Origin: a candidate division WWE3 bacterium GW2011_GWB1_41_6 | GTDB lineage: Bacteria; Patescibacteriota; WWE3; UBA101185; UBA10185 | DNA: 32,612 nt | Assembly (NCBI GenBank): GCA_000997355.1 | Contig: LCBS01000013.1 | Coordinates: forward strand, 1 to 32,612 | Direction: 5' to 3' | Part shown: piece after piece, positions 8,571-32,612 of the stretch | How the letters are laid out: each line of letters opens with the position of its first letter | Numbering within the stretch: position 1 is the first letter of the stretch | The notes under the pieces: generated by a model | Database searches by the model: none | What the model was told of the DNA's origin: nothing | What the model saw: the letters and a program-made list of their open reading frames with translations, nothing else | Position numbers and translations under genes: made by a program

Positions 8571-9236
8571 TTACTTTATATCATCAACTCTTATAAGTTT
8601 CGCTGTGACAACCAGTCTGTTAAACGTAGTTCCCGGAGGATCACACGTTTGCAAAGTAAGTATGGGTTCGATGGTACTTCTTGTTAGCGGGAACGTATCA
8701 AATCCTTTAAGTACTTCTTTATTGATAACCTGATACACATAGTCGTCACCTTTATAAAAGACATGAACCTCATCCCCCGGCTCCACTTTCCTCAGCAAGT
8801 TGAAAACGGTCGCATACTTACCAAGGCGCCAGAAATCTATCGAAGCGTGTGCGAATAAATAAACATTTCCCGGACCTTCTGACGGGTACTCAGAAACAGC
8901 CGCGTGTGCCACACCCGCTTTTAGTGCCTTTAGATAAGCGTTTTTATCCGTAACGGGAACATCGGCTACTACGGGTGCGTTCACACCGATTTTTTCGATA
9001 ACAATGGAAAAGCTGGTATTTACCGGTCTTAATGATACGGTCTTGTTGCTAAGGTACCGGGCGAACGCACTGTCCTGCTCCCCTCCTGAAGCGTTCAGTT
9101 GATAATTTTGATCCTTGGCTTCCTTTAACATATACCAGAATTCGTCTTTTATTAAAGGTCCGTACGTCAAAATAAGAATAACGAAGCCGGCGATAATCAA
9201 AATATTAGAGAACATTAATCGGATACTTCCGGACAT
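8571..9236 (-). CDS. Sortase family protein (sortase 1)
   Basis: VYLFAHAS (His), TLQTCDPPG (TLxTC, Cys), FNRLVVTAKL (Arg); N-terminal TM. Start set to ATG 9236 after the -10 TATACT. Confidence 0.9.
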   Translation of the reverse strand: MSGSIRLMFSNILIIAGFVILILTYGPLIKDEFWYMLKEAKDQNYQLNASGGEQDSAFARYLSNKTVSLRPVNTSFSIVIEKIGVNAPVVADVPVTDKNAYLKALKAGVAHAAVSEYPSEGPGNVYLFAHASIDFWRLGKYATVFNLLRKVEPGDEVHVFYKGDDYVYQVINKEVLKGFDTFPLTRSTIEPILTLQTCDPPGTTFNRLVVTAKLIRVDDIK

Positions 9237-9301
9237 ATATAAAGTATACAATTAATTAACGCTTTATCTTACACCATGGATAGGTATATAATTTATACAA
9301 G

Positions 9302-13099: not shown

Positions 13100-13337
13100 G
13101 GAAAACTCCTTTATTTTGGAATATGCAGATTTTAACATACTATAGGTGCAGCGCCAAATCTATCACACCACATAAAAGAAAAGCCTAGAACCACAACTTA
13201 AAACATTAGATACAAAGTTAGCAAACCTTTTGGATGTGTAAATTGAGGGAAATTTAGATAAAAGTTATATAACGATAAAAAACAATCTTCCCTTTGAATG
13301 GGTGCATTTAGCCTCTAAAAGTGGTGATTTTGATACA

Positions 13338-13429
13338 TGGCGGAGGGGGTGGGATTCGAACCCACGATGAGCTTGCACCCATGGAAGTTTTCAAGACTTC
13401 TGCACTAGACCGGACTATGCGACCCCTCC
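13338..13429 (-). tRNA. tRNA-Ser(TGA)
   Basis: GGAGGGG ... GAAGT CTTGAAA ACTTC, long variable arm, GTGGG TTCGAAT CCCAC, CCCCTCC G CCA on minus. Confidence 0.93.
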
Positions 13430-13497
13430 CTATAGGTCTTACTCTACCTAAACTGATCAAAGAGATTATATCAATAATATCAGGAAAATACTGTCTA

Positions 13498-14469
13498 CTA
13501 ACCCACCAAGATCTTATGTATCTGCGAAAACATACTCACCACATAAGTCGCGGCATAAATACTGTAAGAATCAACTCCTTCATCATCTTTAAAAATCCAC
13601 GGCTCCGTCATAACCTCAATGTTATCCCCCGTTCCTTTATACTTAAATACCGGCTGGATCTCGTAATCCTCAATATACTCCGATGCTTCATCAACCGGAT
13701 ACGAACTGCGGATCAATACTTTAGGCATGCCTTGCAAACCCATCGACATTTCCATCAGCTCGCCATCGGACTTGAGACGTTCGGCTATAGTGTCTTTCCC
13801 TGCGACGTCGCCTTCTTTGGAGTAATAACGAGCCTTCTCATACCCCGGACAAACCGCATTATCACAAACCAGATAATACTCCCCGGTTTCCGTATCATGC
13901 CTTACGAACTTGCCGGGGTTCGTGAGCATATTCTTGGAGGTTTTGCACACCGGACACACTACCCTGCCCCTGATGCGCATGTCGATAATTTCCTCGGCTA
14001 CATCAATAAAAATAAAAAAATCAGGATCATTACGGTAATTGATAAGATCCCTAAAATATAACGAGTACGAAATTTGATCAAGGCTTCGCGGCATCCCGTC
14101 AACAAATAATGCCTTTTTTCCTACCCTATCTATCTCCCTTTTTAATAGTGTCAGCATCAGTTCGGACGGAACGGAAACCCTGTCATTACTACGGTTTAAT
14201 AAGGCTTTTATAGCCTCTTCAGCCGATATATAACCTCTGTAATGCTTGTCAATATATGACAGAAGTTCCTTCCCCGCATAAGTTCCTTTACCTGCAATCT
14301 TTTTGGCCAACATATAACCCACAAAACTGTTGTGTTCCAAATACTCTTTAACCTCATCAATTTTTGAACCAAGTTTCGCGTGGAAATACTGCAGTCTTTC
14401 AGCGGGATCGGTCAGGTTATAGGTTCGGCCATCTGATAATTCTTTTGTGTTGAAGTAAGGAAAGTTCAT
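13498..14469 (-). CDS. Adenylate-kinase-like nucleotide kinase with zinc-ribbon-like LID and atypical P-loop
   Basis: AGKGTYAGKELLSYI, FVDGMPRSLDQ, FIDVAEEIIDMRIRGRVVCPVCKT...LVCDNAVCPGY; C-terminal extension. Confidence 0.75.
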   Translation of the reverse strand: MNFPYFNTKELSDGRTYNLTDPAERLQYFHAKLGSKIDEVKEYLEHNSFVGYMLAKKIAGKGTYAGKELLSYIDKHYRGYISAEEAIKALLNRSNDRVSVPSELMLTLLKREIDRVGKKALFVDGMPRSLDQISYSLYFRDLINYRNDPDFFIFIDVAEEIIDMRIRGRVVCPVCKTSKNMLTNPGKFVRHDTETGEYYLVCDNAVCPGYEKARYYSKEGDVAGKDTIAERLKSDGELMEMSMGLQGMPKVLIRSSYPVDEASEYIEDYEIQPVFKYKGTGDNIEVMTEPWIFKDDEGVDSYSIYAATYVVSMFSQIHKILVG

Positions 14470-18094: not shown

Positions 18095-18850
18095 TTAAAA
18101 CGCTTTTATCTCAACAGTTCCCTGCATATCTGTCCTGTAAATTTCCGAACCTATTCCTCCCAAGAAATCTAAAACTTCTTCATCCGGTAGACCGAACTTG
18201 TTTCCCTCGCCCACCTGTATGACCGCATAGCGGGGTGTATACTTTCTTAGAAACGACTTATCCAACCCTGTCTTAGATCCGTGGTGCGAAACTTTAAGTA
18301 TATCGAGACCGTTTTGTATAAGATTGTCTAATTTACCCTTATCAAGCGAGCTTAGTACTGTGGAACCGGCATCACCTGTCAGTAATACCTCAAAAAATCC
18401 ATAATCTGCCAGAATAACAGTAGAGGTATCGTTTATATCAGATGGTGTATAGCTCTTTTCAGGAGGCCATAGTACATGCAGTTCCAGGCCGTCAATACGC
18501 AATAAATCCCCTTTATACAATTTCTTATACGTTCCTGCCGTACACCTTTTAAGTATCCTTTCCAGGCCGACTGAGTGGTCAGCGTGTTCATGGGTTAATA
18601 TGACAACATCCAAATGACATCCGCTAAGGAGGCGTTGGCGTTCGAACAGCAACCGATCCGCTGTATAATCCCCGCCCCCGTCAATTAAAATAAACTTCCC
18701 GGCGGTGGTAGTTATTAATATTGAATCCCCCTGCCCGACATCCAAAAACTCGAAAGTCATTCCTCTACTCTCACGGTTTGATAAAGTGTTCGACAATATG
18801 CTTACCAGGATATATAAAATATAAATTAGCGCGAGTGATCTGAAATGCAT
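18095..18850 (-). CDS. ComEC C-terminal-type metallo-beta-lactamase-fold protein
   Basis: TFEFLDVGQGDSILITTTAGKFILIDGGG, LTHEHADHSVGL, LKVSHHGSKTGLDKSFL. Confidence 0.88.
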   Translation of the reverse strand: MHFRSLALIYILYILVSILSNTLSNRESRGMTFEFLDVGQGDSILITTTAGKFILIDGGGDYTADRLLFERQRLLSGCHLDVVILTHEHADHSVGLERILKRCTAGTYKKLYKGDLLRIDGLELHVLWPPEKSYTPSDINDTSTVILADYGFFEVLLTGDAGSTVLSSLDKGKLDNLIQNGLDILKVSHHGSKTGLDKSFLRKYTPRYAVIQVGEGNKFGLPDEEVLDFLGGIGSEIYRTDMQGTVEIKAF

Positions 18851-19974
18851 TCTTTTTCAAAAATTCTTTTATACAAAAACGGTATTACTAGGACTCCTGA
18901 ATAATATAAGAGCATCGCCTGACGGCCGATCTGGTACCCAAGATCAGCATCTTTAATCTTTGAAAATAGGTCTGTTACTCTGACAAATATGTCCAAAGGA
19001 ACAAATATTATATTCGCTGCCGGTTCAGCAACCCCTGGCACTACCAAAGATAACAAAATAAATAAGAAACCTAATGTTGTAGATAATGGAACGGTCCAAA
19101 GTACCAAAGCGTTAACAAAAGGACTAATAACGCTAATCCGGCCGAAATTGTATGATATTAATGGCCATACTAATACCTGAGCAGCCACTGTTGTACATAG
19201 GTTTTCAAAAACAATGTTTCTTATATGCCAAAACTTCTTAAATATTTTCTGTACTACATCACCGTAAACTATCAAACTAAAAGTAGCAGCTAAACTTAAC
19301 TGAAAACTTAATGACATAATTAATTTGGGATCAGTTATTAACATGAAATATGACGCAACTATAAGAATTTCTTTTACATCGATAATCCTCCCATAGTACT
19401 TGCCTGCCGAAGCAATAGTTCCCATTATCCACGCACGCACTACAGGTGGTTCGAACCCTGCAAGTCCAGTGTATATTAATGTAATAAATACCGCTAATAA
19501 AAAATTATGTAGTTTATATCTGGTTCCTAACATAGATATAACCATATTGGATACTAATGTTATGTTATAACCAGACACCACTACAACATGAACTGTACCA
19601 GTTCTTATAAGAATGTCATAATACTTCTCATTCCTTTTTATGTCATTCGAGCCCAGAACAAGTCCTAAAAGGAGCTCACTATGAGGACTTGGAAGGAATT
19701 TCTGGACGCTCTTTGTTACGTTATTAACTACCATGGCCCTATATGACATAATCAAATCGGTGTTTTCTTTTGACTCGATTTTACTTGCGTCATAGTATGC
19801 AAAATGTTCTTTTTTACTTTCTTCATGTAACATAATACGACATGAAGAGGTGTACGATAGTGTGTTATTAAAAGCCTTTTGCAGGCTGAGTAAGTTCCAC
19901 AGATTATATCCCAAAGTCCCACACGCCCGTACAGCTAACAATATGATAAAAATAAGAACGCCAGCTGTCCGCAT
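18826..19974 (-). CDS. comEC: ComEC/Rec2 competence membrane domain (DNA uptake channel)
   Basis: LLLGLVLGSNDIKRNEKYYDILIRTGTVHVVVVSGYNITLVSNMV, GLAGFEPPVVRAWIMGTIA, multiple TM helices. Confidence 0.88.
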   Translation of the reverse strand: MRTAGVLIFIILLAVRACGTLGYNLWNLLSLQKAFNNTLSYTSSCRIMLHEESKKEHFAYYDASKIESKENTDLIMSYRAMVVNNVTKSVQKFLPSPHSELLLGLVLGSNDIKRNEKYYDILIRTGTVHVVVVSGYNITLVSNMVISMLGTRYKLHNFLLAVFITLIYTGLAGFEPPVVRAWIMGTIASAGKYYGRIIDVKEILIVASYFMLITDPKLIMSLSFQLSLAATFSLIVYGDVVQKIFKKFWHIRNIVFENLCTTVAAQVLVWPLISYNFGRISVISPFVNALVLWTVPLSTTLGFLFILLSLVVPGVAEPAANIIFVPLDIFVRVTDLFSKIKDADLGYQIGRQAMLLYYSGVLVIPFLYKRIFEKECISDHSR

Positions 19975-28463: not shown

Positions 28464-29673
28464 TTACTGAATATACTTGAGCGGATTTGTAGGAACGCCG
28501 TTGTACTTAATAATGAAGTGAACGTGCGGACCTGTAGAACGCCCGGTGTTACCCATCAACCCCATTGCACTGCCTTTACCTACCTCCTGGCCATAGCTTA
28601 CGTCAATTCTGCTCATGTGCCCGTAGGTGGTTTCAAAACCATTCCCATGATCAACCGTAATACGCAAACCAAGACCCCAAGGATCCCAGCCCGCTCTGGT
28701 AACAACACCTCCGGAACATGCATATATCGGAGGCATTCCTCTCCCCCAGGGAGTAGCTATATCCAAACCGTTATGATACACCGAAAAGTATTGCGAAATG
28801 ATACGGACCGTAGTCACGGACCGTAGTCGGCCACATACACCAGCCGCTTCCGCCTGAAGGCGCATCGGGTATTCTGGGTGTAATATATGCCGGTACTGCA
28901 GGTACAATAACCTGCTGAGGTATCTTTGCGTCAGGAATGACAAGTTCCGTTCCTACAGCTAAGCTTGATACATCCAAAATGTAATTAAAGTCAGCAACCG
29001 CCTGAGCGGGAACGTCATATTTATTAGCAATTGACTGTAGCGAGTCCCCCTTCTCCACCTTGTGTATCAGACCTGCGACCGGAGGAATGACTATTTCCTG
29101 TCCGGGTTTCAATACCGAAGAATCAGTCAGATTATTAACATACTTAATAGCATCGGTAGAGATCTTGAACTTGTTGCCAATGTCATATAAAGTGTCCCCT
29201 CCCTCTACGACATACGCGACTGCTTCAGTTCTGCGGCTTTCGGGAATTGTAGTCATAGCCGTATTCTTTGAAGGTATAATGTCCGTGACATTTCGAAGAT
29301 AATCCCTGTTAATTTCCTGGCTGACCACATATTTTGAACTATTAAGTACCTCGCCAAGCATAAAAACTATCAACGCCGAGGCCATTACGACAAAAGTAGC
29401 GAGCGGGCGTCCAAGCTTACCCCTCGACCAGATAAGTTTACGTACAAGAAAACTCTTTCCATTCCGGGATAAAGTCCCTAATAACAGTACAAACTTACCT
29501 GTATACAAAATCGATAATGTGATCTTTTTACGGAAATACTTAATTAAAGCTTTAATGAAATCCAGATAGGCGTGCAGTGTTTGTTCTATTTTGTTACGCC
29601 CTTTAGGTCTGAACCCGTTAAAACTTAATTGGAAAAATCTTTCAGACTTAGGACGCTTTATTGTAAAAAGCAT
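28464..29673 (-). pseudogene. LysM-LysM-M23 (LytM) peptidoglycan hydrolase, split by a 13-bp tandem duplication into ORFs 28771-29673 and 28464-28943
   Basis: ORF 1: TM plus two LysM domains (YVVEGGDTLYDIGNKFKIS..., HKVEKGDSLQSIANKYDV...) ending ...WCMWPTTVR; ORF 2: TTVRIISQYFSVYHNGLDIATPWG...GHMSRIDVSYGQEVGKG...TGPHVHFIIKYNG. Removing one repeat unit restores one frame. Confidence 0.88.
28803..28828. repeat. Exact 13-bp tandem duplication (ACGGACCGTAGTC)x2
   Basis: Read directly: ACGGACCGTAGTC at 28803-28815 and 28816-28828. Confidence 0.97.
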
Positions 29674-31108: not shown

Positions 31109-31738
31109 TTAGCTTATTAACTCACCTTTTACAACTAGTCTTTTGCTGTACGTTAAATCACCCGAAAGCCACACGCCGCTGCATGTGATAAGGGTTATCG
31201 AAGATTTATCTTTATTGCTCTCAAAAATCTTTAATTTGTTGGGATCGTTGATATCAATGTAGATAATATCGGTAACACGATAAGTGTAGCTTCGGTCTAA
31301 CTTATCAAACACCACAACAGTATCATCTTTTTTTATACTTTTCAACTGCCAAAAAGCCGCGGGGCTTCCAGAACTTGTGTCGTAATGGCCGGCTATAACC
31401 ATGTTCCCCGGTTCGCCGGCGTGAGCGCTGTTTCTGTACCATCCGGCGTCGAACCAGTCCTTGGGAGCTTCCATTGTCCCATCCTCTTCTACACCAACCT
31501 CTATGACCGGCACGTCCATGCCAAGCGACTCAATCATCATACGGACCGGGCGTTCGTATAAAGGCACATTTTTGTCTTTAAATACAGATATCTTAGCCGC
31601 CCCCAAAACAGAAGCGCCTTCCGTGCCTAGGGATACCGCGTCTTTGACATGACCTTGTTTTAAAAAATAATCATAACCAATAGCTGTAATTATTACTGAT
31701 GATATGAGAATGTAGGTATAGATCAGAAACCTCTTCAT
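31109..31738 (-). CDS. Sortase family protein (sortase 2)
   Basis: N-terminal TM; MVIAGHYDTSSG (His), TLITCSGVW (Cys), SKRLVVKGEL (Arg). Confidence 0.92.
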   Translation of the reverse strand: MKRFLIYTYILISSVIITAIGYDYFLKQGHVKDAVSLGTEGASVLGAAKISVFKDKNVPLYERPVRMMIESLGMDVPVIEVGVEEDGTMEAPKDWFDAGWYRNSAHAGEPGNMVIAGHYDTSSGSPAAFWQLKSIKKDDTVVVFDKLDRSYTYRVTDIIYIDINDPNKLKIFESNKDKSSITLITCSGVWLSGDLTYSKRLVVKGELIS

Positions 31739-31865: not shown

Positions 31866-32477
31866 TTAGCTAATTTTTCTCTTACTTAAAGTACCGGCTA
31901 CAGCTAAACCAAGACCAAGCAAGGTTACTGCTACGGTAGAACCGGCCCCGGTTTCGGGAAGATCGGTTACTTCCGAATAACATACAGTAGCTGTGTCAGA
32001 TCCTTCAAAGTCATCTTTGTAGGTAAGTTCAACCTTGTTGACAATACATTTGTCAAAATTCTTACGGTCAAACTCGCTTTCCTTGATCTTAGCCTTAATG
32101 ATGAACTCTACCCTCTCGTCGGGTTCAAAGTCATTCCATTCCTCGGTAAGACCATTTCCTCCGACTCTTTCCATTTCTTCAGGAAGAAAGTCTTCGTACT
32201 TCATCTCATCGACTTCGATGTCCCCAACATTCTTTATTCTAATTCTGAATTGAACAGTGTCATCCTCTTCGACCCCGGTTACCTTATCTTTAAAGTCCCC
32301 GCTGTCTCCGATTCTGGCCTCTTTTTCAATTTCAAAAGATTTGTTGAAAACACACTTTTCGCCACCACCATAGGTAGGTTCACAATCACCTTCCGCATAA
32401 GCGGTACCGGAAACTAATACTCCGACTATAAGAGCGGACATAGCTATTATTATTTTGTTTTTTACCAATAATTTCAT
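31866..32477 (-). CDS. Secreted surface protein with C-terminal LPETG sorting signal, probable sortase substrate
   Basis: Signal peptide ...IIAMSALIVGVLVSGTAYAEG; C-terminus LPETGAGSTVAVTLLGLGLAVAGTLSKRKIS. ATG 32477 with AAAGGAAAAC upstream (track start 32492). Confidence 0.9.
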   Translation of the reverse strand: MKLLVKNKIIIAMSALIVGVLVSGTAYAEGDCEPTYGGGEKCVFNKSFEIEKEARIGDSGDFKDKVTGVEEDDTVQFRIRIKNVGDIEVDEMKYEDFLPEEMERVGGNGLTEEWNDFEPDERVEFIIKAKIKESEFDRKNFDKCIVNKVELTYKDDFEGSDTATVCYSEVTDLPETGAGSTVAVTLLGLGLAVAGTLSKRKIS

Positions 32478-32612
32478 GTTTTCCTTTACCAATTTATATG
32501 CACCCAGATAAAGCCTAGGCAGTACATACGTATTGGAGTTTTGGCAGGGAAATTAAATACAATCAGAACCTATCCGGTCCTGAGTTGTGAGGATTATAGC
32601 CTATAATGTGCG

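Follow-up and report, generated by a model that had tools for sequence, protein, structure and literature searches.

The locus analysed here occupies positions 28464-29673 on the minus strand of the window (the whole 32,612-nt stretch of DNA that was analysed), with obg and rho on either side. The window is a complete contig (G000:C13) of a draft genome from an uncultured bacterium, which amounts to 938 kb (0.94 Mb) in 54 contigs, is 85.7% complete and has metagenome-assembled genomes (MAGs) of candidate division WWE3 as its nearest named relatives; its assembly involved scaffolding, with an 18-N gap in contig C2. Two ORFs are found at the locus, in different frames. The 5′ ORF (28771-29673, minus strand) encodes a transmembrane segment and two LysM domains, followed, when read codon by codon, by 14 out-of-frame residues (DYGPYHFAILFGVS) and a TAA stop, and the 3′ ORF (28464-28943, minus strand) encodes a Peptidase_M23 domain. 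Both domains scored well above their Pfam cut-offs: LysM (PF01476) matched two stretches of the 5′ ORF with E=2e-23 (82.5 bits, cut-off 20.9), and Peptidase_M23 (PF01551) matched the 3′ ORF with E=1.9e-28 (98.9 bits, cut-off 28.7). The metal-binding and catalytic motifs of the M23 family (HxxxD, H and HxH) are present in the 3′ ORF as HNGLD, YGHM and PHVHF and align with those of relatives. A stretch of 173 nt is common to the two ORFs, both of which are open.

What separates the two ORFs is a 13-bp duplication, seen by direct reading and by an exact tandem scan. The first copy of the unit, ACGGACCGTAGTC on the plus strand (GACTACGGTCCGT on the minus strand), lies at 28803-28815, and a second, identical copy lies at 28816-28828, at a place where relatives carry only one, the two together making up exactly 26 bp. 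Because 13 is not divisible by three, the second copy throws the gene out of frame, such that in this assembly no continuous frame exports the catalytic domain, the break falling at 28803-28828. When one copy is removed, the minus strand encodes a 398-aa protein that reads GWCMWPTTVRIISQYFSVYHNGLDIA across the junction, shows about 50-68% identity to relatives from its own family in end-to-end alignments, and at the junction aligns without gaps to the WPTTVRIISQYF-type sequence of these relatives. An earlier sequence-only reading of this DNA, which had proposed the exact duplication, the limits of the locus and a continuous reading frame after removal of one copy, was therefore correct to the base in the first two respects and was borne out in the third. 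The one-copy product is best explained as an ordinary membrane-anchored LysM-LysM-M23 protein, a predicted peptidoglycan hydrolase of a WWE3-like (CPR) bacterium.

The duplication stands out in its surroundings. The window contains no other exact tandem repeat whose unit reaches 9 bp, and 381,830 sampled bases (~382 kb) of its genome contain no other whose unit reaches 10 bp; when Markov sequence of the latter size was generated in 20 runs, units of 10 bp or longer gave 0.55 repeats and units of 13 bp or longer gave none. That the duplication exceeds chance is argued more strongly by the comparative evidence, given below, than by these repeat statistics. No Ns were found at the junction, and the ends of the duplication share 0 nt of microhomology on either side. 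A near-palindrome, ACGG-N-CCGT, lies within each 13-mer, and the tandem copies together, when folded as single-stranded DNA, did better than most of their shuffles (z of -2.9 for the plus strand and -2.1 for the minus strand). A 26-mer from the duplication site had no match in a scan of viral contigs.

Orthologs were sought in 57 relatives and found in 52 of them, including 38 of the 39 high-quality genomes, and nearly all of them have an open frame of about 360-470 aa. In a class search with the M23 end as query, each ortholog on an unbroken contig formed one uninterrupted ORF (about 385-540 aa); the exceptions were G001 and G007, interrupted by contig ends, and G019, interrupted by an N gap. 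The gene neighborhood was likewise shared: at 29 ortholog loci, some of them cut by contig ends, rho was a neighbor at 26 and obg at 24. In the 28 aligned relatives with sequence at the site, the 13-bp stretch was present as a single copy without any repeat, and the duplication was not found in any class ortholog detected. We also checked whether homologs naturally carry two separate ORFs here, and no class ortholog had two abutting ORFs in unbroken sequence. Since the orthologs lack the duplication and form single ORFs on unbroken contigs, we conclude that the locus was once a single gene and that only this assembly has the duplication, and the earlier interpretation as a frameshift within one LysM-M23 gene is well supported.

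Among the closest counterparts are LysM-LysM-M23 hydrolases of WWE3 genomes (UBA1379, RIFCSPHIGHO2_02_FULL_38_14, RIFCSPLOWO2_12_FULL_36_10 and others), which share the domains, length and motifs of the one-copy reading and, in most cases, the neighbors rho and obg; these orthologs carry one 13-bp stretch and one ORF, whereas the window carries two copies, together with a valine at an otherwise invariant tryptophan. The gene also has its M23 catalytic domain in common with the characterized endopeptidases DipM, ShyA, MepM and Pgp3, according to NCBIfam and PDB matches, and DipM models match its LysM part as well. Its scores fall far under the NCBIfam cut-offs for these named enzymes, and so by this test it is none of them. 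Elsewhere in the window, two genes encode sortase-domain proteins (8571-9251 and 31109-31738), and near the latter an ORF at 31866-32492 encodes a surface-protein-like product that ends in LPETG, a hydrophobic stretch and a basic tail, and is plausibly a sortase substrate.

We then considered the age of the break. Of the near-invariant positions of the family, the 5′ part has 0 changed out of 81 and the M23 part 3 out of 51, similar to intact relatives, in which 0-6 and 0-5 were changed, respectively, and alignment with relatives revealed no further stops or indels in the broken gene. These results argue against a long-standing pseudogene; as neither half shows decay, the break is either very recent or absent from the organism. 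One other oddity lies close by: sequence and codon alignment showed that a valine codon, GTG (28779-28781, minus strand), replaces the tryptophan codon TGG of all aligned relatives within the F-x-W-Y-H motif (F-x-W-Y-H-N-G) of M23. This valine is unique among 22 full-length family members, and its codon differs from that of tryptophan by two adjacent base changes, about 22 nt from the duplication.

To put the break in the context of the assembly as a whole, ~382 kb of the window genome were scanned for frameshifts against 400 kb of a single-contig relative, which yielded 121 ORFs with homologs. Only one of the 121 gene comparisons gave a convincing frameshift, namely the LysM-M23 locus, and the assembly therefore does not seem generally error-rich; one isolated local error fits this result as well as one isolated mutation. 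A second candidate (L041 3783-4200) was rejected, as in most relatives its homologs are riddled with stops and the region is not covered by any RNA family, and for these reasons it looks like a chance ORF in an unused frame. A third signal, at 13311 on the plus strand of the window, was rejected as a chance ORF opposite the gene at 13498-14469. Opposite the same gene lies a plus-strand ORF (13321-14061) containing GGGGGIRTHDELAPMEVFKTSALDRTMRPLP, which looks spurious and whose start resembles, we presume, ORFs commonly read through tRNA genes. The window further contains comEC (18095-19974) as two overlapping ORFs, one with a competence domain and the other with a metallo-beta-lactamase domain; since most relatives likewise encode the metallo-beta-lactamase part in an ORF of its own (about 250-310 aa), and a 611-aa frame occurs in one, the split is the usual state in this family and comEC was rejected as a second broken gene. 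In another draft of the family, G019, the orthologous gene contains a 34-N scaffold gap (L019 2271-2304, on G019:C27) whose end falls in the homologous 13-mer and which takes the place of about 100 bases found in the congener G022. Assemblies do break at this site, then, an observation made post hoc that may be coincidence.

Taken together, the indirect evidence leads us to favor, with moderate confidence, the interpretation that the duplication is a local assembly error. Two assembled pieces, or two paths of an assembly graph, could have overlapped by 13 bases and been joined without collapsing the overlap, which would then have been written twice, the false copy breaking the frame; the organism itself would most likely carry one copy and make the full-length enzyme. 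Both the absence of the second copy from the organism's DNA and this manner of joining are what we infer. Several findings are in support: the gene is near-universal and undecayed, and a fixed null would be unusual given that orthologs occur in 52 of the 57 relatives and are single ORFs wherever the contig is unbroken; an overlap join needs no microhomology at the ends, and there is none; the GTG codon is a second oddity nearby; the draft is fragmented and scaffolded; and the gap of G019 falls inside the homologous 13-mer. Metagenome assemblies are known to contain joins that retain duplicate sequence despite overlapping ends, as well as wrong repeat numbers, and one 1.13-Mb CPR genome contained 13 local errors before curation (PMC7111523). 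The window resembles these cases in that a coding sequence of a scaffolded draft is interrupted by a short exact duplicate or wrong repeat number, a likeness drawn from the assembled sequence. It differs from them at the join, which lacks the Ns that the duplicate-at-join type of error carries (PMC7111523), and this, along with the otherwise clean assembly (no other convincing frameshift in 121 comparisons, and nowhere else in 382 kb an exact tandem repeat whose unit reaches 10 bp), speaks against an error.

The same two observations, an otherwise consistent assembly and a site without Ns, are in favor of the main alternative, which we regard as possible but less likely, namely that the population sampled truly carries the 13-bp tandem duplication, that it arose very recently and that it inactivates the hydrolase. 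The 5′ product would then be a membrane-anchored LysM protein without an enzyme, and the M23 part would lack an export signal. Strand slippage could be favored by the near-palindromes and the better-than-shuffle folding, and the cost might be lowered by another M23 gene in the genome (an 838-aa open frame in contig C38). Against a recent null stand the intact state of the gene in all comparable relatives, the lack of decay in the window and the lack of microhomology at the ends of the duplication. Even if the duplication were real, a copy could be lost as in any exact short tandem duplication, without this being an evolved switch. The likelihoods that we assign to an assembly error, to a recent null and, as a slim remainder, to all else are judgements and not computed values.

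Besides an assembly error and a recent null, the sequence-only reading had raised a reversible on/off (phase-variable) allele, in which the copy number of the 13-bp unit toggles the hydrolase within the population. In favor of such an allele, an exact tandem array is able to contract and its 13-bp unit does not divide by three, but there are only two copies, no relative carries a repeat tract or a second copy at the site, and the only broken members of the class are those interrupted by contig ends or an assembly gap. With no repeat in relatives, nothing is conserved as a switch, and with no microhomology at the ends either, the proposal found no support and we deem it highly improbable; the duplication is possibly reversible only in the trivial sense common to any exact tandem duplication. 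A search of the literature on reversible short tandem duplications in bacteria found nothing directly relevant. We give least credence to the possibility that ribosomal frameshifting still fuses the products of the two ORFs, or that each functions as a protein by itself: the ORFs do overlap and are both open, but no CTT-TGA-type shift site was seen by eye in the 14 codons from the duplication to the TAA, relatives need no shift, and the M23 ORF lacks an obvious signal or transmembrane segment of its own, its upstream part being linker sequence in the wrong frame.

For annotation, these data indicate that the two ORFs are to be read as one gene, and that a claim of gene loss in this species would be unsafe. 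In the highly improbable case of a duplication that is both real and polymorphic, cells belonging to one CPR species would toggle a wall hydrolase by gaining or losing a 13-bp copy, and the presence of both states in the population would provide an example of reversible wall-hydrolase loss in an uncultured CPR bacterium.
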